A stretch of 41,689 nucleotides of DNA, taken from the NCBI RefSeq assembly GCF_000760035.1, contig NZ_JNAO01000007.1:1-41689 (forward strand), in the 5' to 3' direction. Made by a program: the position numbers and the translations under genes. The DNA comes from Prochlorococcus marinus str. MIT 9314 (GTDB lineage Bacteria; Cyanobacteriota; Cyanobacteriia; PCC-6307; Cyanobiaceae). Under the pieces are notes generated by a model. That model saw nothing but the letters and a program-made list of their open reading frames with translations. It had not been told where the DNA came from and searched no databases. This document shows, piece by piece, positions 922 to 15,675 of this stretch. The first letter of the stretch is position 1, and each line of letters opens with the position of its first letter.

Positions 922-3582
922 ATGACATCTCAATTAATTAAACAAATAGTTACTGGAGATGAGATAAGAAATGCTTTTTTAAAATTTTACAGTGAAAAAT
1001 TACATAAAATCATTCCAAGTGCATCTTTGATTCCAGATGACCCTACGGTTATGCTCACAATTGCTGGAATGCTACCTTTTAAACCAGTTTTTTTAGGTTT
1101 AAAAGAAAGACCATCAAAAAGGGCTACATCTAGCCAAAAGTGCATCAGAACAAACGATATAGAAAACGTTGGAGTTACAGCTAGACACCACACTTTTTTT
1201 GAAATGCTTGGTAATTTCTCTTTTGGAGATTATTTTAAACGAGAGGCTATTCAATGGGCTTGGGAATTAGTTACTAATATTTATCAACTTTCTGTTGAAA
1301 ATATAATTGTGAGTGTTTTTCACGAAGACGAAGAGTCTGTAAAAATTTGGAGAGATGAAATTGGTATCCATCCAGATAGGATAGTCAAACTAGGTGAGGA
1401 AGATAATTTTTGGTCATCTGGCAAAACAGGTCCATGTGGACCTTGTTCAGAACTTTATTATGATTTTCATCCTGAAAAGGGTCTGAAGAATATTGATTTA
1501 GAAGATGGAGATCGTTTTATTGAATTTTATAATCTTGTTTTTATGCAATATAATCGTGATCCTAATGGTAAATTGACAGATTTAAAATTTAAAAATATTG
1601 ATACAGGAATGGGTCTTGAAAGGATGGCTCAAATACTACAAAAAAAGCAAAATAATTATGAGACAGATTTAATTTTTCCTATTATTCAAAAAATTTGTGA
1701 GATTGCAAATATTGATTATTTTTCTTCAGATGATAAAAACAAAATTTCTTTAAAAATCATTGGTGATCATACAAGAGCTGTTATTCATTTAATTTCTGAT
1801 GGAGTATCAGCAAGTAATCTCGGTAGGGGATATATATTAAGAAGGCTTATTAGAAGAATGGTCAGACATGGCAGATTATTAGGTATAACAAATGAATTTT
1901 TACCTCATATTGCTACTGTCGGAATTAACTTAATGCAAAATAATTATCCTGATTTAAAAAATAATAATGATTTAATTTTGAATGAGATAAAAATTGAAGA
2001 AATAAGATTTAGGGAAACTCTTGAAAGAGGAGAGAAATTGCTAGATGAGTTAATTTCTTCAGGGCAGAAATTAATTTCTGGTTTTAAAGCTTTTGAACTT
2101 TATGATACTTATGGATTTCCTCTAGAACTTACTGTAGAAATTGCTGAAGAACATAGTATCAGTGTAGATGTAAAGGGTTTTGAAGAAGAAATGAATGTAC
2201 AAAAAGAGAGAGCTAAAGCTGCTTCAAGTAATATTGATTTGACATTGGAGGGATCATTAGAGCGAGAAATAGATCTTTTTAACAAAACTGTTTTTAATGG
2301 TTATAAGTCACTCCTTTCGGAAGCTGAAATAAAGGGTATATTCTTGGATTCAACATTAGTTAAGGAAGCAACTGAAGGTCAGAAAGTTTTAATTGTTCTT
2401 GATCAGACAACTTTTTATGGAGAATCTGGCGGGCAAGTTGGTGATATTGGAACGATATTTTCAAACGATGTTGAGGTCTTGGTTGATAATGTCATGCGAA
2501 AGAAAAATGTTTTTTTACATTATGGAACGATCAAAAAAGGAAAATTAACTATTGGACAAAAAGTTAAGACTAATGTTAGCTCCTCTAATAGAGCTAAGGC
2601 TGCTGCAAATCATACAGCTACTCATTTATTACAATCTGCACTTAAATCAGTTATTAATGAAAGTGTTGGACAGAAAGGTTCTTTAGTAGCCTTTAATAAA
2701 TTACGATTTGACTTTAATTCCTCTAATCCTATTTCTAAAGATCAAATTTCTAAGATTGAGACTTTAGTTAACTCTTGGATTATGGAAAATCATGCCCTAG
2801 AAATAAAAAATATGTCTAAGAGTGAGGCTCTTGAAAAGGGCGCAGTCGCCATGTTTGGAGAAAAATATGATGATGAAGTGCGCGTCGTTAATGTACCAGG
2901 AGTTTCAATGGAACTTTGTGGTGGCACACATGTTAAAACTACATCCGAATTAGGTTCTTTCAAAATAATTAGTGAGGAAGGAATCTCAGCTGGAGTCAGA
3001 AGAATCGAAGCATTATCAGGCCAATCAGCATTAGATTATTTCAGTGATAGAAATGCATTAGTAAACCAACTAAGTGATTTGTTAAAAGCAAATCCTAATC
3101 AACTTTTTGAAAGGGTTAATAATTTGCAAGCAGAGCTTATTAATAAGAATAAAGAGATACAAAAAATGAAAGATGAAATTGCATATTTTAAATACTCTTC
3201 TATAAAATCATCCGCAGAAATAGTAAATTCTTTTTCAATTTTAGTAAATCAGATTGATGGCTTAGATGGGAATTCTTTGCAATCTGCAGCACTTAATTTA
3301 ACTTCTCATTTAGGAAATAAAGCAATAGTGATTCTTGGGGGAATACCAAATCCAGAAAATAGAAAGTTGTTATTTGTAGTTTCTTTAGGTGATGATGTAG
3401 TAAAAATAGGATTGCATGCAGGTAAATTAATTAATGAGATTGCAAGAATTTGTTCAGGAGGTGGAGGAGGAAAGCCTAACTTTGCTCAAGCAGGTGCTAA
3501 AGATATTGATAAGTTAAGTGATGCTTTAGATTATGCTAAAAATTATTTGCAAAAAACATTAGCTAATCATTCTGATAAATAA
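922..3582 (+). CDS. alaS: Alanyl-tRNA synthetase
   Basis: An 886-residue class II aminoacyl-tRNA synthetase that charges tRNA-Ala, at the usual bacterial length. The order is an N-terminal catalytic domain (class II core with GMGLERM near residues 229-235), then the editing domain with the zinc-binding pattern HTATH (H564, H568) and CGGTH (C666, H670), a coiled-coil linker near 700-760, and the C-Ala domain with a glycine-rich stretch starting at C844. The editing domain removes wrongly attached serine or glycine. The ATG at 922 gives the standard N-terminus. The 3' end overlaps the convergent speA gene by 16 bases, so the two transcripts are complementary at their ends. No truncation is seen. 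Confidence 0.98.
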
Positions 3583-6097: not shown

Positions 6098-7207
6098 TTA
6101 AATCGCAAATCTATCTAAACTAAATTTTTCTAAAAAGCTTTTCTCTATTTCTTTGAGATTTTTATTTTGAACTATTTTCAAAAGAAGATCACTTGTTATT
6201 GCAGAAAATAAAACTCCATTTCTGTAATGTCCTGTAGCTATATAAAGATTTTCAATTTTTGATTTTCCAATTATTGGTTTTAGATCTGGTGTGCAAGGTC
6301 TAAAGCCCCACCAATGTTCCATTTGTGGCCAATTAATAGCTTCTGGCAATAAAGAGCGAATGCCTTCTTGCAGTTGTTTTATTCCATTAGGAGTATTACC
6401 TTGATTAAATTTTGAATCTTTTTCAACTGTCGCTCCAACTATAATAAGTCCATCATCACGCGGAACTAGATAAGTTTTTGGACCAAAAATAACCCTTTTC
6501 AAAAAATTTGTTGGACCTTGTATTGATAGCATTTGTCCCTTTACAGGAAAGACTGGAATCTTATTAAAAATTTTTTTGCTCCACGCACCGCTGCATATAA
6601 TTGCTTTTTCGCAGTTAATTTTTTTTATTTCCCCAGTGGCACATAAAACTGTTGCACCTGTAATTTTGTTTTTTTCGAATGTCAAATCCTCTACTTCTGA
6701 TCCCTCTTGAAATTCGACTCCATTCAAGGAGCATGCTCTCTCAAGAGCACGCATCAGTTTTCTTCGGTTATCTATTTGACCATCTTGTTCAAAAAGTAAA
6801 CCATGTTTCCAAATAGAATTCATTCCATTGATTTCTGTTTGAAGATCTTTGTGATTTAAATATTTTCCATATTTATAAGTGGGAAACTCTTCAAGATCTT
6901 CTTTGTTTTTAAAAGGAACTACTATGCCACATTTTTTTAAACCGCATTTAATATTACTATCTTGTTCAATACTTCGTATCCACTTTGGAATTAGATTTTG
7001 ACTTTCTTGGCCAAATTTTAGTAATTCATCTTCGAGCCCTTCGGCATGAGTAGCTAACATTCCTGCAGCAACAAATCCAGCTGATTCATTTCTGTTTTTG
7101 CTTAAAACTAAAACTTTGAAGTTATTTCTAGAAAATTCATAAGCAATGGATAAACCTAAAAGTCCACCTCCAATTATTAATATTGAATTTTTGGTTTCTT
7201 GTGCCAT
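6098..7207 (-). CDS. thiO: FAD-dependent glycine oxidase-like enzyme
   Basis: A 369-residue DAO-family flavoenzyme. A dinucleotide-binding GGGLLGLSIAYE block lies at residues 13-24, and the C-terminal RPCTPDLKPIIG and YIATGHYRNGVLF segments are typical of ThiO/DadA-like FAD oxidases. ThiO oxidises glycine to the imine needed for the thiazole half of thiamine. This role fits the cyanobacterial family but cannot be separated from other amino-acid oxidases by sequence reading alone. It is divergent from gatB with a 79-base gap. No thiamine-pyrophosphate riboswitch is visible upstream. An island gene at 12769 encodes a possible thiamine-binding protein, a thematic but not physical link. Confidence 0.85.
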   Translation of the reverse strand: MAQETKNSILIIGGGLLGLSIAYEFSRNNFKVLVLSKNRNESAGFVAAGMLATHAEGLEDELLKFGQESQNLIPKWIRSIEQDSNIKCGLKKCGIVVPFKNKEDLEEFPTYKYGKYLNHKDLQTEINGMNSIWKHGLLFEQDGQIDNRRKLMRALERACSLNGVEFQEGSEVEDLTFEKNKITGATVLCATGEIKKINCEKAIICSGAWSKKIFNKIPVFPVKGQMLSIQGPTNFLKRVIFGPKTYLVPRDDGLIIVGATVEKDSKFNQGNTPNGIKQLQEGIRSLLPEAINWPQMEHWWGFRPCTPDLKPIIGKSKIENLYIATGHYRNGVLFSAITSDLLLKIVQNKNLKEIEKSFLEKFSLDRFAI

Positions 7208-8762: not shown

Positions 8763-9380
8763 TTAAAGAAGCTCTTTTATCGTATTGATCCATTTATTTT
8801 GATCATCTGAATTCTCTAAAATAATATCTGAGAATTTTCTTTTTTCTTCAAAACTTAATTGAAAATTTATCAATTCATATGCTTCTTTTTCACTAATTTT
8901 ATCTCTTGTTATAAGTCTGTTTTTTTGTATTTCTTTAGGACATTTAACTAACCATATTTCAGTGCAAATATCTTCAAATTTTGCTTCAAACAATAATGGA
9001 ATAGCCAATACTATAGTTTGATTATTTTTGTATTGACTGCATTCTTCTATCATTCTTTCTTTAATTAAGGGGTGAAGTAGTTTTTCAATCCATTCCTTGC
9101 TTGCTGAATGTTTAAAAATAATGTTCCTTAAAAGTTTTCTGTTTATTTCCCTTTCTGAATTGCTTTTATTATCAATAATTTTATTTCCAAAATAATCTAA
9201 AATTTTCTTATATCCATATGTGTTTGGTTTGATTAATTCTCTTGAAAAATGATCTGCATCTAATATTGGTATGTTTTTATGTTTTCTTATGTAATTAGTT
9301 ATGGTTGTCTTACCACTTGCAATACCTCCTGTTAAACCAATCCTTCTTTGGTTGTTTTTTAATTTTTGAAGAATATCCAT
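8763..9380 (-). CDS. coaE: Dephospho-CoA kinase
   Basis: A 205-residue P-loop kinase that performs the last step of coenzyme A synthesis, phosphorylating the ribose 3'-hydroxyl of dephospho-CoA. The Walker A motif GLTGGIASGKTT lies at residues 15-26 with K24; ILDADHFSRELI is the conserved CoaE acidic segment; IPLLFEAKFEDIC matches the LID/substrate region. ATG start at 9380. It is convergent with gatB and divergent from argJ (76-base gap). Confidence 0.95.
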   Translation of the reverse strand: MDILQKLKNNQRRIGLTGGIASGKTTITNYIRKHKNIPILDADHFSRELIKPNTYGYKKILDYFGNKIIDNKSNSEREINRKLLRNIIFKHSASKEWIEKLLHPLIKERMIEECSQYKNNQTIVLAIPLLFEAKFEDICTEIWLVKCPKEIQKNRLITRDKISEKEAYELINFQLSFEEKRKFSDIILENSDDQNKWINTIKELL

Positions 9381-9456
9381 ATAATTAATAATAATCTAAT
9401 TACTTAGTTTCTTTAGTATTAAAGAGTAGTTAGTATGAATTAAAATACCAAAAAGC

Positions 9457-10695
9457 TTGAGCCAGTTAGATTCCAATTGGTCGTTTGTTGATGACAGTAA
9501 GGTGACACCCAAGGGGTTTCTTTTCGCTGGGATATCTGCTGGTTTAAAAGCTTCTAATAAAAAAGATTTAGCACTAATACTCGCTCCTGAAGGAAGTATT
9601 TTTAGTGGGATGTTTACCCAATCAATAGTTCGAGCTTCTTGTGTGGATATTTGTGAGGAAAGGATTAAAACAACTTCAGGTTTTGTAAGAGCAATACTAA
9701 TTAATTCTGGTCAAGCAAATGCATGTACAGGAAATCTTGGTATTCAACATTTTCAAATTGCTACAGGAAAGATTGCGGAACTTTTAGGAATAAAAGAAGA
9801 AGAAGTTTTAATGTGCTCAACTGGTGTAATTGGTGTTCCAATAAAAATAAATGATTTAGTAAAAAATTTACCGAATTTAGTTAGTGATTTAAAGGGTAAT
9901 AATTTTGAAAATGCAGCAGAAGCAATTTTAACTACTGATTTGACTTTGAAAAAAGTGTCAATAGAGACGATTATTCAAGGTAGAAAAATAAAAATAGCAG
10001 GATTTGCAAAAGGTTCAGGAATGATTTACCCCAACATGGCTACAATGCTTGCTTTCCTAACCTGTGATACGGGCATTCAAAAAGAAGAATGGGACAAAAT
10101 GATTGCTATTGCGGTTCAAAAATCTTTTAATGCAATATCAGTTGATGGAGAGACAAGCACAAATGATTCTTTTGTTGGAATAAATGCAGGAGAGAAAATT
10201 GAAAAAAGGTTTTTTCCAATTATCCAACAAGGGATTGATATTGTATGTCAGAACTTGGCAAAAAATATTGCAAGGGATGGAGAGGGAGCAAATTGTTTAT
10301 TAGAAGTTTTGGTTCAAGGAGCAAAAAATACAGATGATGCAATTATGCTCGCGAAATCTATTTGTAATTCTGCCTTGGTAAAAACTGCGATACATGGTTG
10401 TGATCCAAATTGGGGACGAATCATTTCTGCTGCAGGTAATTCTGGAGTTAAATTTAATTTAGATGACGTTGACTTGTATATAGGAAACGCTCACATTTTG
10501 GAAAAAGGCCAGTTAAATAAATATGATCCACAAAGAGTCACAGACTATATTAAGTCCAGAATGAAAGGTAGATATTTGGTAGATGATATTGTAAAAATTA
10601 TGCTTAATCTAAATTCTGGCGAATCGAAAGGCACAGCTTGGGGATGCGATCTTTCTAAAAAATATGTTGAAATCAATAGCGAATACACTACCTAA
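9457..10695 (+). CDS. argJ: Bifunctional glutamate N-acetyltransferase / amino-acid acetyltransferase
   Basis: A 412-residue ArgJ of the Ntn-like ornithine acetyltransferase family, which recycles the acetyl group in arginine synthesis. The autocleavage nucleophile is T196 in MATMLAF, cutting the chain into alpha and beta parts. The C-terminus ENDs in a strongly conserved HGxDPNWGRI block followed by a short tail. The start is TTG at 9457 (protein MSQLDSNWSF); the nearest upstream ATG runs into a stop within three codons, so no ATG start is available. The last nine codons and stop are repeated about 1.27 kb downstream at 11931-11960 beyond an inserted methyltransferase gene, marking the argJ 3' end as the left border of the accessory island. 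Confidence 0.96.
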   Translation: MSQLDSNWSFVDDSKVTPKGFLFAGISAGLKASNKKDLALILAPEGSIFSGMFTQSIVRASCVDICEERIKTTSGFVRAILINSGQANACTGNLGIQHFQIATGKIAELLGIKEEEVLMCSTGVIGVPIKINDLVKNLPNLVSDLKGNNFENAAEAILTTDLTLKKVSIETIIQGRKIKIAGFAKGSGMIYPNMATMLAFLTCDTGIQKEEWDKMIAIAVQKSFNAISVDGETSTNDSFVGINAGEKIEKRFFPIIQQGIDIVCQNLAKNIARDGEGANCLLEVLVQGAKNTDDAIMLAKSICNSALVKTAIHGCDPNWGRIISAAGNSGVKFNLDDVDLYIGNAHILEKGQLNKYDPQRVTDYIKSRMKGRYLVDDIVKIMLNLNSGESKGTAWGCDLSKKYVEINSEYTT

Positions 10696-10730
10696 CCCCA
10701 AACTGTAGTCATAGCAATAGATTACAAGGA
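10666..10730 (+). repeat. argJ 3'-end repeat, left copy
   Basis: Last nine codons and stop of argJ plus about 35 downstream bases. A second, diverged copy lies at 11931-11995. Seventeen bases are identical (10669-10685 against 11934-11950). The rest is imperfect but aligns without gaps for most of its length, by eye about three quarters identical. The two copies enclose the methyltransferase gene. Confidence 0.8.
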
Positions 10731-10744
10731 TACTAAAAACCATA

Positions 10745-10763
10745 TAACACCAATATAACACTA
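10745..10763 (+). repeat. 19-base box, left copy, inside the argJ-flanked insert
   Basis: TAACACCAATATAACACTA, matching 17 of 19 bases with the box at 11867-11885 in the same orientation. The shorter core TATAACACTA also occurs at 11814-11823. The boxes sit just inside the two argJ-end repeats. Confidence 0.6.
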
Positions 10764-10844
10764 GATTTCTATTTGAAATATTCGTAAAGATTACGATTTA
10801 GTAGACTGCAAATTATAATGAAAATTTTTTATTAAACAATTTAT

Positions 10845-11675
10845 ATGAAAGAAGATTCATCTATTTTTTTAAGGAAAATACGCTCTTTAAATTTAAAAAT
10901 GTGTGATATGTGGGTAAATGAAGCATTATTTGGTTTTTTTCATATAAAAGAATATTGTAAAAAACTTAAAAAAAATGATAATGTTTTAGAAATTGGTTGC
11001 GGTAGTGGCATACTGCTAAATTTATTATTAGAAAATTTTAAAGATATAAATTTTGAAGGGATAGAACCCTTTGGAGATGGATTCAGTTCTCTAACTAAAT
11101 TGAATTCATTATCAAAAAAAAATGGAGTATCAATTAAAAATATTGGATATAAAGAATTATCCTATAGTCGTAAATATGATCTAATTTTTTGCGTCAATGT
11201 TTTTGAACATCTTTATGATTGGCGGAACTTTTTAGACAAGATTAGTTGTCTTTTAACACAAGATGGAAAAATTATAGTCCTATGCCCAAATTATGGTTTT
11301 CCATATGAAAGTCATTTTAAAGTTCCTATTTTATTTAATAAAGGAATAACATCCTTCATTTTTCAAAAATATATTAGAAGTTATGAAAAGAAAAACGAAT
11401 GTATTGGCTTATGGAAATCACTTAATTTTGTAAAAAAAAGAGAGGTTATTAATCATATTAAAGATTCAATTCATACCAAAAATCTAAAAATTTATGATAA
11501 TTTATCAATCTTAGATTTTTTGGTTGAAAGAATCATGAATGATCGAGAATTCAGAAAAAGACAAAAAATAGTAGGTGCAGTTGCAATTTTCCTTAAAGGT
11601 TTAGGGATATTGAATATTTTTAAACTTTTTCCAAATTTTATACCTTATATGAAATTGGAATTTTCTAAGAAATAA
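10845..11675 (+). CDS. Class I SAM-dependent methyltransferase, substrate unknown
   Basis: A 276-residue protein with a class I methyltransferase fold. Motif I is NVLEIGCGSG at residues 46-55. The acidic motif II is FEGIEPFGDGF near 70-80, and YDLIFCVNVFEHLYDW at 111-126 is the motif IV/post-I region typical of Methyltransf_11/12/23 families. The N- and C-terminal extensions are rich in lysine, phenylalanine and asparagine. In cyanobacteria such proteins commonly modify surface polysaccharide sugars, lipids or quinones, but no partner gene is adjacent, so the substrate is not assigned. The gene is very AT-rich and stands alone between two copies of the argJ tail, which suggests acquisition as a unit. 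ATG start at 10845. Confidence 0.8.
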   Translation: MKEDSSIFLRKIRSLNLKMCDMWVNEALFGFFHIKEYCKKLKKNDNVLEIGCGSGILLNLLLENFKDINFEGIEPFGDGFSSLTKLNSLSKKNGVSIKNIGYKELSYSRKYDLIFCVNVFEHLYDWRNFLDKISCLLTQDGKIIVLCPNYGFPYESHFKVPILFNKGITSFIFQKYIRSYEKKNECIGLWKSLNFVKKREVINHIKDSIHTKNLKIYDNLSILDFLVERIMNDREFRKRQKIVGAVAIFLKGLGILNIFKLFPNFIPYMKLEFSKK

Positions 11676-11866
11676 TTCTTGGTTTAATTATAAGTTGTGT
11701 TGACTCCTGCTTGGCCTTTTTCGGTGTATAACTTCCGCATAATTCTTTATATCTTCTTCCGTTTGATTTATCTCTCTAAATGTAACTAACTCAAGAGGTC
11801 TTTATAACTTTTTTATAACACTACTCTAGTCATATCAGTGTGTTTTGTTAGTTGACTGAAACTTTG

Positions 11867-11885
11867 TAACACCTGTATAACACTA
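11867..11885 (+). repeat. 19-base box, right copy, inside the argJ-flanked insert
   Basis: TAACACCTGTATAACACTA, 17 of 19 bases identical to 10745-10763, same orientation. Confidence 0.6.
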
Positions 11886-11930
11886 ATTTTGTAGTAGTGA
11901 TGCTAGTCATACCAATTGTTTTCAAGGTCA

Positions 11931-11995
11931 GTGGAAATCAATAGCGAATATACAACTTAACCCTAAAACGTAGTTATATTAATTGATTTGAAGAT
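11931..11995 (+). repeat. argJ 3'-end repeat, right (detached) copy
   Basis: Begins GTG GAA ATC AAT AGC GAA and ends in TAA at 11958-11960, encoding VEINSEYTT-stop exactly like the real argJ end. It differs in four codons, all synonymous (GTT/GTG, TAC/TAT, ACT/ACA, ACC/ACT). Similarity continues past the stop for about 35 bases. The sequence before 11931 is not argJ, so this is a severed tail. Confidence 0.8.
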
Positions 11996-12070
11996 TATTA
12001 ATATGTTGTTTACGGTCTGCTTACATTAAATTAGGACTTATTATTACTAATTTAATTTAGTCGCACTAGG

Positions 12071-12238
12071 TTAAACATATCCATTAACTATGGTTGGATG
12101 TTCTTTGTTTTTGAACATTTTTCTATAGTCATCATGCAATCTTTCAGTTGCCAATTTTCTTTTCTTCATTACATCTCTGATTAAATCTATCTCATTGAAT
12201 GTACGATTGAGAATTGTGAATGGAGTAGTTAGTTTCAT
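12071..12238 (-). CDS. Small hypothetical protein (55 aa) with strong Shine-Dalgarno
   Basis: ATG at 12238 encodes a 55-residue basic protein starting MKLTTPFTILNRTFNEIDLI and ending KEHPTIVNGYV. An AGGAGG site lies 4 bases before the ATG (12243-12248), a strong site compared with most genes in this window, and supports translation. I do not recognise the family. The block from AGGAGG to the fourth codon is 18 of 19 bases identical to the gene at 12277-12459, and the 3' end is also alike, while the bodies differ. There is no signal peptide, membrane segment or cysteine. Confidence 0.6.
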   Translation of the reverse strand: MKLTTPFTILNRTFNEIDLIRDVMKKRKLATERLHDDYRKMFKNKEHPTIVNGYV

Positions 12239-12276
12239 AAAACCTCCTTTTTTAATAAAGACTAAAAATTAATAAC

Positions 12277-12459
12277 TCAGTCGCAGTAAATTAAACAATT
12301 TTGATTTGTTGGATGTTCTCTACATTCTTTCTCCCAAAAGTTTTGAAACTCAGGGGTGCATTTCTCAAGTTCTTTTGGAGTTTCGTTTAGATTTAATCCT
12401 GCATAATTAAATGCAGTTAAGTATCTTGGAAGAATGTTAAATTGATTGAATAGTTTCAT
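12277..12459 (-). CDS. Small hypothetical protein (60 aa), tandem relative of the 12071-12238 gene
   Basis: ATG at 12459 encodes 60 residues, beginning MKLFNQFNILPRYLTAFNYA and ending in REHPTNQNCLIYCD. AGGAGG lies 4 bases upstream (12464-12469). It shares the MKL start, an F-x-I-L-x-R pattern and an EHPT motif with its neighbour. It has four cysteines (in KCTP, KECRE, QNCL and IYCD); two of them are in the last seven residues, a feature absent from the neighbour. The 24 bases around the stop (12273-12296) match 19 of 24 with 12053-12076, where a frame difference gives the neighbour an earlier stop. Function unknown. It is divergent from the small-RNA promoter at 12496. Confidence 0.6.
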   Translation of the reverse strand: MKLFNQFNILPRYLTAFNYAGLNLNETPKELEKCTPEFQNFWEKECREHPTNQNCLIYCD

Positions 12460-12495
12460 AAGACCTCCTAGATCTATATCTATATTGTCCTCCTA

Positions 12496-12524
12496 TTGAC
12501 TTGAAATTCATAGAGTATTATTAC
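12496..12524 (+). promoter_or_regulatory. Predicted promoter of the 12531-12680 small RNA
   Basis: TTGACT at 12496-12501 and TATTAC at 12519-12524, spaced 17 bases, a good sigma-70-type match. Transcription would begin near 12531, exactly where a 10-base helix starts. Confidence 0.5.
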
Positions 12525-12530
12525 CCGATT

Positions 12531-12680
12531 AGAAGTGCTTTGTGGTTGTCACGACTATCTTTTCTCGTTCAGTAGGAGTAGAAATAATTCAGGAGTCAAA
12601 AGCACTTCATCGACTTTGTGGACAGCGAGGTGCATACGACTCGAAGAGGGCAAACAAATGCCCTCTTATTTTATTTTTAG
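12531..12680 (+). ncRNA. Probable structured small RNA, about 145 nt, family unknown
   Basis: A well-placed promoter is followed at once by GAAGTGCTTT (12532-12541), which is perfectly complementary to AAAGCACTTC (12599-12608), closing a large hairpin domain. About 40 bases later comes an intrinsic terminator: AGAGGGCA / TGCCCTCT (12645-12652 / 12659-12666) with a 6-base loop and a T-rich tail. CTTTGTGG occurs twice (12539-12546 and 12614-12621), the first just past the 5' arm. Two short open frames cross this stretch but have no ribosome-binding site. It matches neither tmRNA, the SRP RNA conserved loop nor a TPP riboswitch as I know them. Marine Prochlorococcus carry many lineage-specific Yfr RNAs; this could be one. 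Confidence 0.6.
12645..12680 (+). terminator. Intrinsic terminator of the small RNA
   Basis: Perfect 8-base stem AGAGGGCA / TGCCCTCT, loop AACAAA, then TATTTTATTTTTAG. It is one of the clearest rho-independent terminators in the window; no protein gene ends just upstream on this strand. Confidence 0.8.
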
Positions 12681-12768
12681 TAAACTTTTACTCATTCTTT
12701 TTGCTACATTTTATCGACATTAGTATTTAGGATATGAATGGTTAGATTTATCAAAATAGGAAGTAATT

Positions 12769-13062
12769 ATGTTTGTAAGTATTGATTTATGTTTAGTCCC
12801 TATTGGAGTTGGAACTTCCCTATCTCCTTATATAAAAGAGTGTATTGAAGTTATCAAAAATGAAGGCCTTAACTATGAATTAGGAGCGAATGGAACTGCA
12901 ATAGAGGGAGATTGGGATAAAGTATTTGAATGTGTTAAAAAATGCCATAAAAAAATTCATTCAAAAGGTGCGCCTAGAATTTATACAACAATGAAAGTAA
13001 ATACTAGAACTGATAAAGAACAAAAATTCTCAGATAAAGTAAAAAGTGTATTAGATAAATAA
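12769..13062 (+). CDS. MTH1187/UPF0045-family thiamine-binding-like protein
   Basis: A 97-residue protein with the pattern of the MTH1187 (DUF77, UPF0045) family: VSIDLCLVPIGVGTSLSPYI at the N-terminus, then NYELGANGTAIEGDWDKVFE in the middle. Members form ferredoxin-like tetramers, and some bind thiamine or hydroxymethylpyrimidine. Length and motif order agree with the family. The AGGAAGT about 7 bases before the ATG is a plausible ribosome-binding site. It lies in the accessory island between a small RNA and a membrane-anchored protein, 24 bases before the latter, so the two may be co-transcribed. Thiamine binding is a family inference. Confidence 0.8.
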   Translation: MFVSIDLCLVPIGVGTSLSPYIKECIEVIKNEGLNYELGANGTAIEGDWDKVFECVKKCHKKIHSKGAPRIYTTMKVNTRTDKEQKFSDKVKSVLDK

Positions 13063-13086
13063 TGGAAAAAGAGCGAAATTAATATA

Positions 13087-13515
13087 ATGATGGATAAAAC
13101 TAACACTTGGTTAATAAGAGCATTTGCTGTTGTTCTTATTTGTGTTTGCCTTTTTGCATATCTAAATGCACAAGCGAACCAATCCTTACTCCGTTCAAAA
13201 CCTAGCATTGAGAATTTGGAATATAAAGCATTCTTACTCCGTCCAAAACCTAGTATTGAGGATTTGGAATATAAAGCATTAGATAAGTTAAGGGGAAATG
13301 CTGAATTTGCTGCGAATAGAGATTATGCGGACTATGAAAAATTTGGAAGTATAATTTTTTGCAATACTTCAATCAATAGTCGAATTGAATCAGCAAACTA
13401 TTCGAAACAAATGGAATTATATATTTCTGGGAAAGAAGCAGATTTATCAGAATGGGATACTGCTATAAAAAATTATGAAAACGAAAGGTCAAAATGTAGA
13501 GACTTTAATCCTTGA
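13087..13515 (+). CDS. Membrane-anchored or secreted hypothetical protein with internal 16-residue repeat
   Basis: A 142-residue protein. Residues about 6-26 (LIRAFAVVLICVCLFAYLNA) form one hydrophobic helix, either an anchor or a signal peptide with a possible A-x-A cleavage site. The rest is soluble and acidic. Residues from about 34 contain two copies of a 16-residue unit of the type LLRxKPSIExLEYKAF/L, encoded by a 48-base tandem duplication. ATG at 13087 or the adjacent one at 13090. It lies 24 bases after the thiamine-binding-like gene on the same strand. Two cysteines in the C-terminal part (FCNTS and KCRD) could form a disulfide outside the cytoplasm. Family not recognised. Confidence 0.65.
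   Translation: MMDKTNTWLIRAFAVVLICVCLFAYLNAQANQSLLRSKPSIENLEYKAFLLRPKPSIEDLEYKALDKLRGNAEFAANRDYADYEKFGSIIFCNTSINSRIESANYSKQMELYISGKEADLSEWDTAIKNYENERSKCRDFNP
13185..13280 (+). repeat. Two 48-base tandem units in frame inside the membrane-anchored gene
   Basis: Units 13185-13232 and 13233-13280 differ at three bases only (changing S to P, one silent change, and N to D). A length that is a multiple of three keeps the reading frame. The small divergence points to a recent duplication. Confidence 0.9.
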
Positions 13516-13591
13516 AACGTTGAAACTGCGCGTAATTTAAGTGTTTCAAGAACCTTAAGTTACAAGAAACAAAATATACTGATAAGAAATC

Positions 13592-13684
13592 ATGTCAATA
13601 TTTCACTTTTTAATTACCACTTACACTTTGCTTACAATCGTATTGACTTATAAAAAGTCAGTTGTTGCAGTCAATTTTGAGTGA
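13592..13684 (+). CDS. Possible 30-residue hydrophobic micropeptide
   Basis: ATG to TGA encoding MSIFHFLITTYTLLTIVLTY and ten more residues, with one likely membrane helix. There is no clear ribosome-binding site and no known relative that I recognise; it may be chance in AT-rich DNA. Confidence 0.2.
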   Translation: MSIFHFLITTYTLLTIVLTYKKSVVAVNFE

Positions 13685-13714
13685 TTATCTTTGTATAGCA
13701 ATGAATAGCTAATA

Positions 13715-13957
13715 CTACTTAAGTTTTAGTAAATCTAATGGTAGATATTCATTAATATATAGAAACAGTATTGTTAAAGTTCCAATTACAGAGCCTATAA
13801 AACCTCCAAAAAAATTAACTAATAATCCAGATTGTCTAATTATAGCTTCTTCTTTTTTTTCTTCTTCAAAATTAGGAGAATCAACTACTTTTAAGCGCTG
13901 ATTGGTTGTTGGTTGTTTAAGTTGTTGGTGTCGGATGAGGGCTTCGAAATCAGGCAT
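13715..13957 (-). CDS. Small membrane protein overlapping the end of parA
   Basis: An 80-residue protein from the first ATG in frame (13957), overlapping the last 67 bases of the parA-like gene in another frame. The second half has one strong membrane helix (LLVNFFGGFIGSVIGTLTIL) preceded by a charged segment (FEEEKKEEAIIRQ). A TTG at 13981 could extend it by 8 residues. No start codon lies after the overlap, so if the gene is real it must begin inside parA, implying translational coupling, or else it is the displaced C-terminal part of a frameshifted longer ParA. No ParB-like helix-turn-helix is visible. Function unknown. Confidence 0.5.
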   Translation of the reverse strand: MPDFEALIRHQQLKQPTTNQRLKVVDSPNFEEEKKEEAIIRQSGLLVNFFGGFIGSVIGTLTILFLYINEYLPLDLLKLK

Positions 13958-14562
13958 GGAATTTGTGAGGCAATTGAACAATAAGCAGACCAGCCCGTCA
14001 TTCGACGAGGATCTGATCTACCTAAATCGTCTACAGCTTCAAATACAGCATTGCCCGAGGCTTCTGCTTTATCAAATGCTGAAAGTAAGGGTATAAACTT
14101 ATCAAAAACATACAAACCAAAATTTTCTAGAGCCGCTTTGGCTTGTTGCGCTGCTTTTTGCTGTCTGAAATCAACTTTTACAATTACTACTGCATGGTTA
14201 ACTTTTAAGTTGCTTAATAAATTTGCTAGTTCAACAGTTAATTCTACTGATCTTGCTTTTGCAGTTGTAGGTAAGATAACTAAATCTGAACCATACGCTA
14301 AGTGTTTAAGTTCTTCTTGATCACTGCTAGCCTGTCCATCAGTTATTACAATTTCTGATGATCTTGATGCTTTAGCAGCAGAACTCACGGGGAAAACTGG
14401 AAATGGAAGATTGCCTCTTGATGCGTATGCTAAAGCAGATCTATTCTTGTCAGCATCGACTATGCAAACTTTTTTACCTTCAGAATGCCAAACGCTTGCA
14501 AGGTGAATACTTGTACAGGTCTTGGCCACCCCTCCTTTTTGTCCGCAAACGGTAATGAACAA
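13891..14562 (-). CDS. Orphan ParA/MinD-type ATPase
   Basis: A 223-residue P-loop ATPase of the ParA family. The deviant Walker A motif QKGGVAKT lies at residues 8-15 with the signature lysine K9 and K14; VDADKNRSAL (D36, D38) follows the first strand, and IVITDGQ (D75) is the Walker B region. The chain is shorter than chromosomal ParA and lacks an N-terminal DNA-binding domain, like the small ParA proteins of plasmids and of cellular cargo positioning. The start is TTG at 14562, directly before FITVCGQKGG, with no alternative ATG. No parB or parS cluster is adjacent; the only partner is the overlapping membrane protein. Its cargo is unknown. Confidence 0.85.
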   Translation of the reverse strand: MFITVCGQKGGVAKTCTSIHLASVWHSEGKKVCIVDADKNRSALAYASRGNLPFPVFPVSSAAKASRSSEIVITDGQASSDQEELKHLAYGSDLVILPTTAKARSVELTVELANLLSNLKVNHAVVIVKVDFRQQKAAQQAKAALENFGLYVFDKFIPLLSAFDKAEASGNAVFEAVDDLGRSDPRRMTGWSAYCSIASQIPCLISKPSSDTNNLNNQQPISA

Positions 14563-14712: not shown

Positions 14713-15675
14713 GTGAAGAAAAGAATTGGATTAGGTACGTGGTCTTGGGGGAATAAGCTTTTCTGGAATTACCAATCTACAAATGACGATGATTTACGTG
14801 AGACATATGATGAAGCGTTACGAAGAGGTTTCGATCTAATTGATACTGCAGATTCTTACGGTACTGGGAATCTTCAGGGCAGAAGTGAATTGTTGATAGG
14901 AAAATTTTTACTAAATACTCCTTCAGCAAAGAAAAAAAGAATTCAAATAGCAACCAAACTTGCACCTTATCCCTGGAGAATAGGTAACAGAGGCTTCAAT
15001 AAACCTTTTTTGAAAAGTTTAGAGAGACTTAATAATAAATTAGATATAGTGCAATTACATTGGTCAACTGCAAAATACAATCCTTGGCAGGAATTAGGGC
15101 TGTTGAATAATCTTTGCGATTTAAAAGATGAAGGCTTTGATTTTCAAATAGGTTTATCAAATATAGGCCCTAAAAGATTGATGCAATTAATTAATTTTTT
15201 AGCAAAAAGAGATCAGCACCTAAAGAGTGTTCAAATACAGTTTTCTTTGCTTGCTCCCGATTTAGGAAAACAATATCAGGTAAAAAAAATTTGCGACGAA
15301 AATAATATTGATTTCTTTGCTTATAGTCCTTTGTCCTTTGGAATACTTTGTATTGATCCGGATAAAGAAGAAAATAAAGAAAAAAGTTTTATTCGTAATT
15401 CCTTATTTGAAAACTATAAAAAACCAACATATGAATTGCGGAGGTGTCTAAAAAGAATTGCGCATCAAAGATCAGTTTCCCAAGCGCAAGTAGCAATTAA
15501 TTGGTGTTGTTATCAAGGAACTATTCCGCTAGTTGGAATGCGAAAAAAATCTCAAGTTATAGATGTATCTAATGTATTTAATTGGAATTTAAAAAAAAAT
15601 GAATTTAAAGTACTTCAGGAAGTTTCAAAAAAATGTTTAAAAAAAATGCCGAAAAATCCTTTTTCGAGTAATTAA
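14713..15675 (+). CDS. Aldo/keto reductase
   Basis: A 320-residue NAD(P)H-dependent oxidoreductase of the AKR superfamily, TIM-barrel fold. The catalytic tetrad is visible: D44 and Y49 in LIDTADSYG, K82 in IATKLAPYP and H116 in VQLHWS. The C-terminal VAINWCCYQGTIPLVGMRKKSQ segment is the cofactor-binding region. It resembles the cyanobacterial and plant-chloroplast group related to pyridoxal reductase. The exact substrate cannot be read. The start is GTG at 14713, giving KKRIGLGTWSWGNK, the usual family beginning. It is divergent from parA with about 150 bases between; core gene order appears to resume here. Confidence 0.9.
   Translation: MKKRIGLGTWSWGNKLFWNYQSTNDDDLRETYDEALRRGFDLIDTADSYGTGNLQGRSELLIGKFLLNTPSAKKKRIQIATKLAPYPWRIGNRGFNKPFLKSLERLNNKLDIVQLHWSTAKYNPWQELGLLNNLCDLKDEGFDFQIGLSNIGPKRLMQLINFLAKRDQHLKSVQIQFSLLAPDLGKQYQVKKICDENNIDFFAYSPLSFGILCIDPDKEENKEKSFIRNSLFENYKKPTYELRRCLKRIAHQRSVSQAQVAINWCCYQGTIPLVGMRKKSQVIDVSNVFNWNLKKNEFKVLQEVSKKCLKKMPKNPFSSN

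Follow-up and report, generated by a model that had tools for sequence, protein, structure and literature searches.

Elements of one family, moved by tyrosine recombinases, very probably use the 3′ end of argJ in Prochlorococcus as their chromosomal attachment site (attB); their insertions restore the end of the gene and stack up at argJ. We analyzed this site in a stretch of 41,689 nucleotides (nt) from the genome of Prochlorococcus marinus str. MIT 9314 (G000; NZ_JNAO01000007.1, positions 1–41,689), hereafter the window, in which two elements are stacked at argJ, element 1 (el1) on element 2 (el2). The repeated core, the empty sites, the stacking, the arm repeats at the element ends and the integrases at the same site in relatives were all observed directly, and they indicate that small mobile cassettes dock at the argJ end, both in Prochlorococcus and in some related organisms.

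An earlier note on this DNA had described a duplication of the last nine argJ codons and the stop, with four silent differences, and both direct reading and repeat detection bear this out. The argJ end at 10666–10695 reads GTT GAA ATC AAT AGC GAA TAC ACT ACC TAA, and the second tail at 11931–11960 reads GTG GAA ATC AAT AGC GAA TAT ACA ACT TAA. The two tails represent the longest direct repeat of the region 9300–14000 (71 nt, 77% identical, spacing 1265), which continues for 41 nt past the stop, where the note had given about 35 bases. The last argJ codons form a 21-nt core, AATAGCGAATATACnACnTAR, present in both tails. A 20-nt pattern of this core is found in 72/101 genomes of the genus, while the pattern read backwards gave no match as a control, which excludes a chance origin of the repeat. 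Within G000, the pattern occurs only at 10675 and 11940. By eye, the core lends itself to a reading as imperfect inverted repeat (TAAATAG - CGAATATA - CTACTTA), as expected for the target of a tyrosine recombinase.

A third copy of the core, AATAGCTAATACTACTTAA, is damaged: it lacks two bases and overlaps the end of a convergent gene of 88 amino acids (aa). At the same place, the loci L161 and L162 carry an intact 21-nt core, AATAGCGAATATACTACTTAA. As the third copy lies beside the convergent gene, the foreign stretch extends from 10675 to 13722 and comprises two units. The insert of about 1.2 kb with one methyltransferase, placed by the earlier note at 10666–11995, therefore stands as el1 (1265 bp, one methyltransferase), whereas the third copy and the second of the two stacked elements had been missed.

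The nearest named relatives of the window, L161 (argJ DNA 99.3% identical) and L162 (98.9%), share el2 in place. Above it they carry other outer elements, of 2974 bp and 1613 bp, respectively, neither of which is el1; a full-length match to el1 was found in neither locus, and only 137 nt of its right end match L161 (76%). An el2-type left end follows argJ directly in L173, L178, L208 and L225. Since el2 is nested inside, we infer that it arrived before el1. The damaged third core suggests that the far end of el2 is frozen.

Next, we consider the argJ end in related genomes. In a same-genus set, 54 genomes besides G000 had an argJ match and 52 loci were extracted (G011 and G051, with argJ in pieces, were left out); read from the argJ stop, 24/52 are empty, with the convergent gene at the argJ end, and 28/52 contain an insert. 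A second, named Prochlorococcus set comprised 80 loci, the best 80 of 455, and therefore samples close relatives (94–99% ArgJ). Among its 73 loci readable to the far gene (7/80 were set aside), 37 are empty and 36 filled, with inserts of 138–6764 bp (median 1780 bp). The two sets overlap, and their counts are not to be added together. The site thus combines a target repeat at both ends of the insert and an intact argJ reading frame of 412 aa with empty sites in close relatives, as is characteristic for a site-specific integrative element. Empty sites, which the earlier note had proposed to look for, are common, and instead of all sharing the same two copies, related genomes carry different inserts.

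The bases of the core itself indicate how the element and the host gene are joined. The last seven bases read TACTTAA in 36/37 empty sites, in 28/34 far-side copies (34 of 36, compared at a threshold of at least 17 of 21 positions) and in 1/36 argJ-side copies of filled sites. Among these 36 argJ-side copies, 21 different 7-mers occur, and by eye the 7-mer varies with the element type. Base 9 of the core is G in 8/36 argJ-side copies and never in the 37 empty sites, and therefore arrives with the element. The first six bases on the argJ side, in turn, are variants of empty sites (AATAGC, AATAGT, AACTCG), and L169, L192 and L225 have the host variant AACTCG on the argJ side and AATAGC in the far copy. 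The left core bases accordingly follow the host argJ, and the right ones come with the element. The strand switch most likely falls between core bases 6 and 9, an interval within which we infer the exact point. The last 13–15 bases of argJ in the window are probably element-borne, as the 3′ halves of the core differ from those of empty sites.

This also bears on the claim of the earlier note that purely silent differences mean that each copy was once part of a working argJ. For the 3′ half of copy 2 the claim is plausible: it came with el2, and its differences are silent because this core half probably served as the functional end of argJ until el1 was inserted. It does not extend to the 5′ half, which came with the right end of el1. 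Over the 12 nt upstream of the core, 34 loci match an argJ reference at 11.9/12 positions on the argJ side and at 7.2/12 at the far junction, so that the upstream part of a detached copy need not code.

Tandem repeats with a period of 11 bp were found near the element ends. Units were counted where a further core with at least 19/21 positions was present; outside the counts are, among others, the inserts of L180 and L203 and, because of its damaged far core, el2 of the window, and one core among the counted units is doubtful (L235 at 513). After removal of one near-duplicate (52 to 51 units), 11-bp repeats occur at 22/51 left and 36/51 right ends, while other periods from 7 to 17 reach at most 3/51. 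When three units below 300 bp were left out, the counts were 20/48 and 34/48, with at most 3 for periods 9, 10, 12 and 13. The background in host flanks is 0.001–0.003 per stretch. Left and right arms of the same unit are more alike (15.3/20) than re-dealt pairs (12.6/20; 0/20000 permutations, 39 units with a left arm of at least 7/9).

The arms also keep set distances. The left arm starts 42–48 nt after the stop in 9 of 20 units, 66–70 nt in 10 and 89 nt in one. Arms of the 42–48 nt group are TATAACACC-like, with right arms mostly 73–78 and 136–140 nt before the far core; those of the 66–70 nt group are GTGATTAT-like, with the right arm at 93–94 nt. El1 belongs to the first group, with its left arm at 46 nt and a right arm at 140 nt; a less well matched pair, read by eye, lies at about 76 nt. 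For this proximal right arm, the arm-finding script chose another pair in the window and the matching pair in L161. The left-arm motif of el2 is also found in the L161 copy of el2 and in L173, L178, L208 and L225. Based on spacing and pairing, the 11-bp repeats are candidate arm-type sites that might bind the integrase. As a separate observation, the first 30 nt after argJ in L036, L043, L068 and L072 contain an imperfect palindrome such as AAATCCATTGCAGGGCAATGGATTT, which may be a terminator or a site for an accessory protein; by eye, a reverse-complement echo of it stands before the far core.

Within the genus, three elements inserted at argJ carry a tyrosine recombinase, namely those of G047 (527 aa), G106 (457 aa) and L219 (468 aa). 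The G106 element has a serine resolvase beside the integrase, and the L219 element encodes a ParB-N/DNA-methylase protein and, by eye, a resolvase-like open reading frame (ORF). The G047 integrase scores 28.6 bits for Phage_integrase (cut-off 27.1); the G106 integrase has a Pfam match only to the integrase SAM-like domain (Phage_integrase 19.1), and both match PHROG integrases. In an alignment with four relatives, Y-S-x-R-H and a tyrosine are invariant columns. Using the L219 integrase as a tblastn query, we also matched integrases downstream of argJ in other genera of the family. There, G226, G190, G271, G155 and G187 show a second argJ tail (19–22/24 bases) 3.6–11.1 kb past the stop. Just inside this tail an ORF test revealed an integrase-like ORF on the opposite strand in G226, G190, G271 and G187, and in G155 an integrase lies inside the tail by tblastn match. 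These five elements have arms such as GGTAACACCTCGGTAACACC, spaced nearly as in el1. In G148, four further stretches match the genome's own argJ tail (18–20/24), whereas the G168 stretch yielded no second argJ tail.

When 20 recombinases were placed in a tree, the three argJ integrases came out on a single branch (97/95), and all five recombinases with a tRNA gene in their stretch (from next door to more than 6 kb away) lie across a 98/97 branch from them. Four others group at 99/100, two of which (L266 and L270) are located at guaA, and the recombinases at a flavodiiron gene and at ispF group at 98/99. El1 and el2 have no integrase gene and the genome of the window shows none at argJ; both elements are therefore considered non-autonomous.

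Further gene ends came into view along with these integrases. At the guaA 3′ end, related integrases are found in L266 (7190–8665) and in L270, where two copies of a guaA-like tail (G T I E W E stop) with silent differences (6867–6912 and 15194–15239) occur and 11-bp repeats like GTTTCCCGTGA stand near both ends; the guaA end may thus be another hub built like that at argJ. L261 (G000:C3:1–14000) has a 502-aa integrase (ORF 1506–3014) between two flavodiiron-like genes, just past the end of the first one, and L265 looks alike. In L267 (7449–8966 and 11148–11651), an integrase lies between trmD-like and ispF-like ORFs; the trmD ORF ends with an echo of the FRIGNGYD stretch that is found close to the start of ispF, and the target may here be a gene start. 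In G042 (L149/L073; C1, about 33500–43320 and 63187), the argJ insert is followed by a convergent guaA and another core lies 20 kb away, a possible trace of an inversion with its ends at two attachment sites.

One mechanism could account for the arrangement at argJ. A recombinase from a rare integrase-bearing element would act on a circular molecule that has the core and matching arms, and strands would be exchanged inside AATAGCGAATATACnACnTAR. The right core half of the element would then become the new last codons of argJ, restoring the gene, and the displaced original argJ end would stay on the far side, beside the convergent gene. Since each integration recreates the site at argJ, a newcomer would land between argJ and the previous element, and the stack would grow at argJ. 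In the window, el2 would have come first and el1, with its methyltransferase, later. As el1 has no recombinase and keeps both arm-bearing ends in a layout like that of the integrase-bearing argJ elements, its integrase was probably supplied in trans. Excision, action in trans, transport by a vehicle and present mobility, including that of el1, are predicted parts of this model, which is deduced from the sequences.

Several points weigh against such a family of site-specific elements, a case that in its entirety is built on sequence comparison. The core variants are reversed in L189, L207, L227 and L235, with AACTC on the far side and AATAG at argJ; some elements therefore bear AACTC, and the left limit of the switch rests on three loci. 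No recognisable far core was present in 2/36 filled loci. The script found no arm pair of 8/9 at the left end of 28/48 elements and at the right end of 14/48, and ends are unlike in L176, L185 and the second unit of L208, which are perhaps recombinants. From the stop to the left arm, the distance is 131 nt in the G106 element and 89–90 nt in the L219 element, in contrast to 66–70 nt in cassettes with GTGATTAT arms. The G047 integrase forms a long branch in the tree. A search of 266 genus genomes with the L219 query gave more than 50% identity only in G333 and G106, and 21–35% in eight others including G047; the integrase donor is therefore rare or unsampled. In G000, PF00589 matches two frames, of 395 aa and of 504 aa (under cut-off, at another gene end), neither at argJ and both on other contigs. 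No relative of the G106 and G047 integrases was found in viral_contigs and none of the G106 integrase in phages. Finally, many genomes are single-cell assemblies, although the single-contig genomes G041 (150 bp) and G050 (1774 bp) are also filled.

Different explanations for the repeated argJ ends were weighed against this evidence. Cassettes could have entered by homologous recombination between conserved flanks, the repeats being by-products that require no site-specific enzyme. Flanks in Prochlorococcus are often 94–99% alike, so that flank-driven exchange of whole arrays likely also occurs; as the general explanation we regard it as very unlikely, because it accounts neither for repeated cores inside the inserts nor for matched 11-bp arms or integrases at the site in several genera. 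Of the two routes named in the earlier note, integration at a gene end that is thereby restored is accordingly favoured over homologous recombination by the core-sized repeat, the arms at set distances and the integrases in other elements at the site. A local origin of the second tail, by tandem duplication or as a decayed piece of argJ, fits the same orientation of the two copies, and has hardly any probability left: mainly the core is shared, with the 12 nt upstream of far copies departing from argJ as described above, inserts vary between genomes, and the frequent empty sites rule out a duplication that drifted in place.

The many units of 1–2 kb, the multi-unit arrays such as that of G148 and, by eye, an imperfect palindrome of about 25 nt after the core at many left ends are reminiscent of an integron-like cassette array, in which units of few genes with palindromic ends gather at one place. 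Here, however, insertion occurs at the end of a coding gene and not at an attI beside intI, arm repeats are found at both ends, integrase genes ride inside some elements and cargo groups differ in orientation, which makes an integron highly improbable. Slightly more probable, though still unlikely, is that the units are tycheposons at another site, a reading that shares the mechanism with the one preferred here and differs in the family of elements. Tycheposons, for which PMC10872708 gives a size of 4–200 kb, are cargo-carrying integrative elements that use tyrosine recombinases in the same hosts and target tRNA genes. The argJ elements are smaller (1.3 and 1.8 kb in the window), their site has no tRNA and its core belongs to the coding end of argJ, and the argJ integrases branch apart from the five recombinases with a tRNA gene nearby. 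The features of the region are listed in Table 1.

Table 1 Features of the argJ site and its two stacked elements in the window
Feature	Position	Strand	Evidence or remark
argJ, 412 aa, target gene, intact	9457..10695	+	Pfam PF01960, E 2e-128
Core copy 1, left attachment site of el1, AATAGCGAATACACTACCTAA	10675..10695	+	repeat and pattern search
el1, non-autonomous element, 1265 bp core to core	10696..11939	+	
el1 left arm-type tandem repeat ATATAACACCAATATAACAC, 11-bp period	10742..10761	+	46 nt after argJ stop
el1 cargo, S-adenosylmethionine (SAM)-dependent methyltransferase domain protein, 276 aa	10845..11675	+	Methyltransf_23/12
el1 right distal arm repeat CTTTATAACTTTTTTATAAC	11800..11819	+	140 nt before core
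el1 right proximal arm repeat TGTAACACC..TATAACACT, 7/9 alike	11864..11884	+	about 76 nt before core; by eye
Core copy 2, where the right end of el1 meets the left end of el2, AATAGCGAATATACAACTTAA	11940..11960	+	
el2, non-autonomous element, about 1.76 kb	11961..13703	+	97.9% / 98.3% identical in L161 / L162
el2 left arm repeat GTTGTTTACGGTCTGCTTACA, 11-bp period	12005..12025	+	by eye
el2 small ORF, 55 aa	12071..12238	-	no family match; occurs in other el2-type elements
el2 small ORF, 60 aa	12277..12459	-	no family match; occurs in other el2-type elements
el2 cargo, thiamine-binding-protein domain, 97 aa	12769..13062	+	Pfam PF01910, E 6e-35
el2 ORF, 142 aa	13087..13515	+	no family match; in 4/48 loci
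el2 right arm repeat CTTACACTTTGCTTACAATC, motif class as in el2 left arm	13620..13639	+	by eye
Core copy 3, el2 right attachment site	13704..13722	+	two bases lost; TACTTAA end as in empty sites
Convergent chromosomal gene, 88 aa, marks far side of the site	13715..13981	-	end overlaps argJ end in empty genomes
Conserved flank gene, ParA/CbiA-like, 223 aa	13891..14562	-	

At gathering scores, tRNA and transfer-messenger RNA (tmRNA) were the only RNA families found in the window, and the RNA gene nearest to the site is the tmRNA, 2.2 kb beyond. Within the 142-aa ORF of el2, a 48-nt stretch is duplicated in tandem and in frame (13182–13277, 92% identical). Regarding cargo in general, the inserts of 48 loci contain 112 ORFs of at least 75 aa, and most of the groups formed by single linkage (E 1e-5) are confined to one locus. 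The commonest group occurs in 20 loci, with 22/22 ORFs on the strand opposite argJ; by eye these proteins look secreted, and one of this kind scored 22.3 bits for YadA_anchor, just below the cut-off of 22.7. Homologues of the el1 methyltransferase with 75, 57 and 54% identity are encoded in G020, G037 and G008, off the argJ contig, the one in G020 beside glycosyltransferase-like and lexA-like ORFs (by eye). As DNA similarity to these relatives covers the gene and not the element ends, the source of el1 was not found.

The insert proteins scanned, which represent a part of the insert ORFs, included no recognisable conjugation gene product. Carriage by phages was considered as well: the core pattern matched only L083 and L084 in viral_contigs, both times inside a phage ORF (MNSEYTTYN), and the matches were rejected as chance. 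As a side observation, L228 and L247, from different genera, share by eye an ORF with KLNLGCGERKFPG near its start beyond the argJ end, which suggests an exchange of cargo across genera.

Insertion at the 3′ end of a protein gene is familiar from GIsul2 and streptococcal integrative and conjugative elements (ICEs), which insert at the guaA 3′ end. The argJ elements resemble these in that an integrase-bearing element sits at such a gene end, and related integrases occur at guaA within the genus; they differ in their target and in the many small cargo units without an integrase. Decayed ICEs related to ICESt3 are described in the 3′ end of fda (PMC7563491). The cis-mobilizable elements (CIMEs) treated in the same paper, with their accretion, have much in common with the argJ units, being att-flanked, devoid of a recombinase and arranged in tandem at one gene's 3′ end beside integrase-bearing elements. 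El1, which keeps its att sites and lacks recombination genes, agrees with the definition of a CIME, and in el2 the far core has lost two bases. CIMEs derive from an ICE or an integrative and mobilizable element (IME), an origin that would be conjectural for the argJ inserts, which measure 0.1–7 kb. The ssrA islands of Dehalococcoides (PMC3146451) likewise follow one another at a single gene's 3′ end, with 20-bp direct repeats and 15 islands without an integration module, but they target the tmRNA gene, and their recombinase DsiB is compared with CcrB and not with tyrosine integrases. That elements integrate at the 3′ ends of genes, that they accrete there and that CIMEs lack a recombinase is thus already known (PMC3146451, PMC7563491). 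Our literature search revealed no paper on argJ as an integration site, with most subscription journals lying outside the search, so that absence is not proved.

A broader reading, which we put forward tentatively and hold to be somewhat less likely than its opposite, is that argJ is a hub of shared cassette exchange across the Prochlorococcus/Synechococcus family. With a single core and several rare integrases, each having its own 11-bp arm address and acting in trans on a pool of small cassettes (putative surface proteins, methyltransferases and many unknowns), such a hub would fulfil the role of an integron while having neither IntI nor attC, and the ends of guaA and of the flavodiiron gene would be its sister hubs. 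Few phototrophs are as abundant as Prochlorococcus, and the islands that hold a large part of its flexible genome have been ascribed to tRNA-based elements. At argJ, about half of the readable loci in one clade carry swappable cargo of 0.1–7 kb at a core biosynthetic gene, and the site displays the order of arrival, a narrow crossover and rare candidate integrases. With core, arms and candidate enzymes named, it offers a testable entry to the movement of small cargo between streamlined genomes, and the arm repeats may reveal which integrase handles which cassette.

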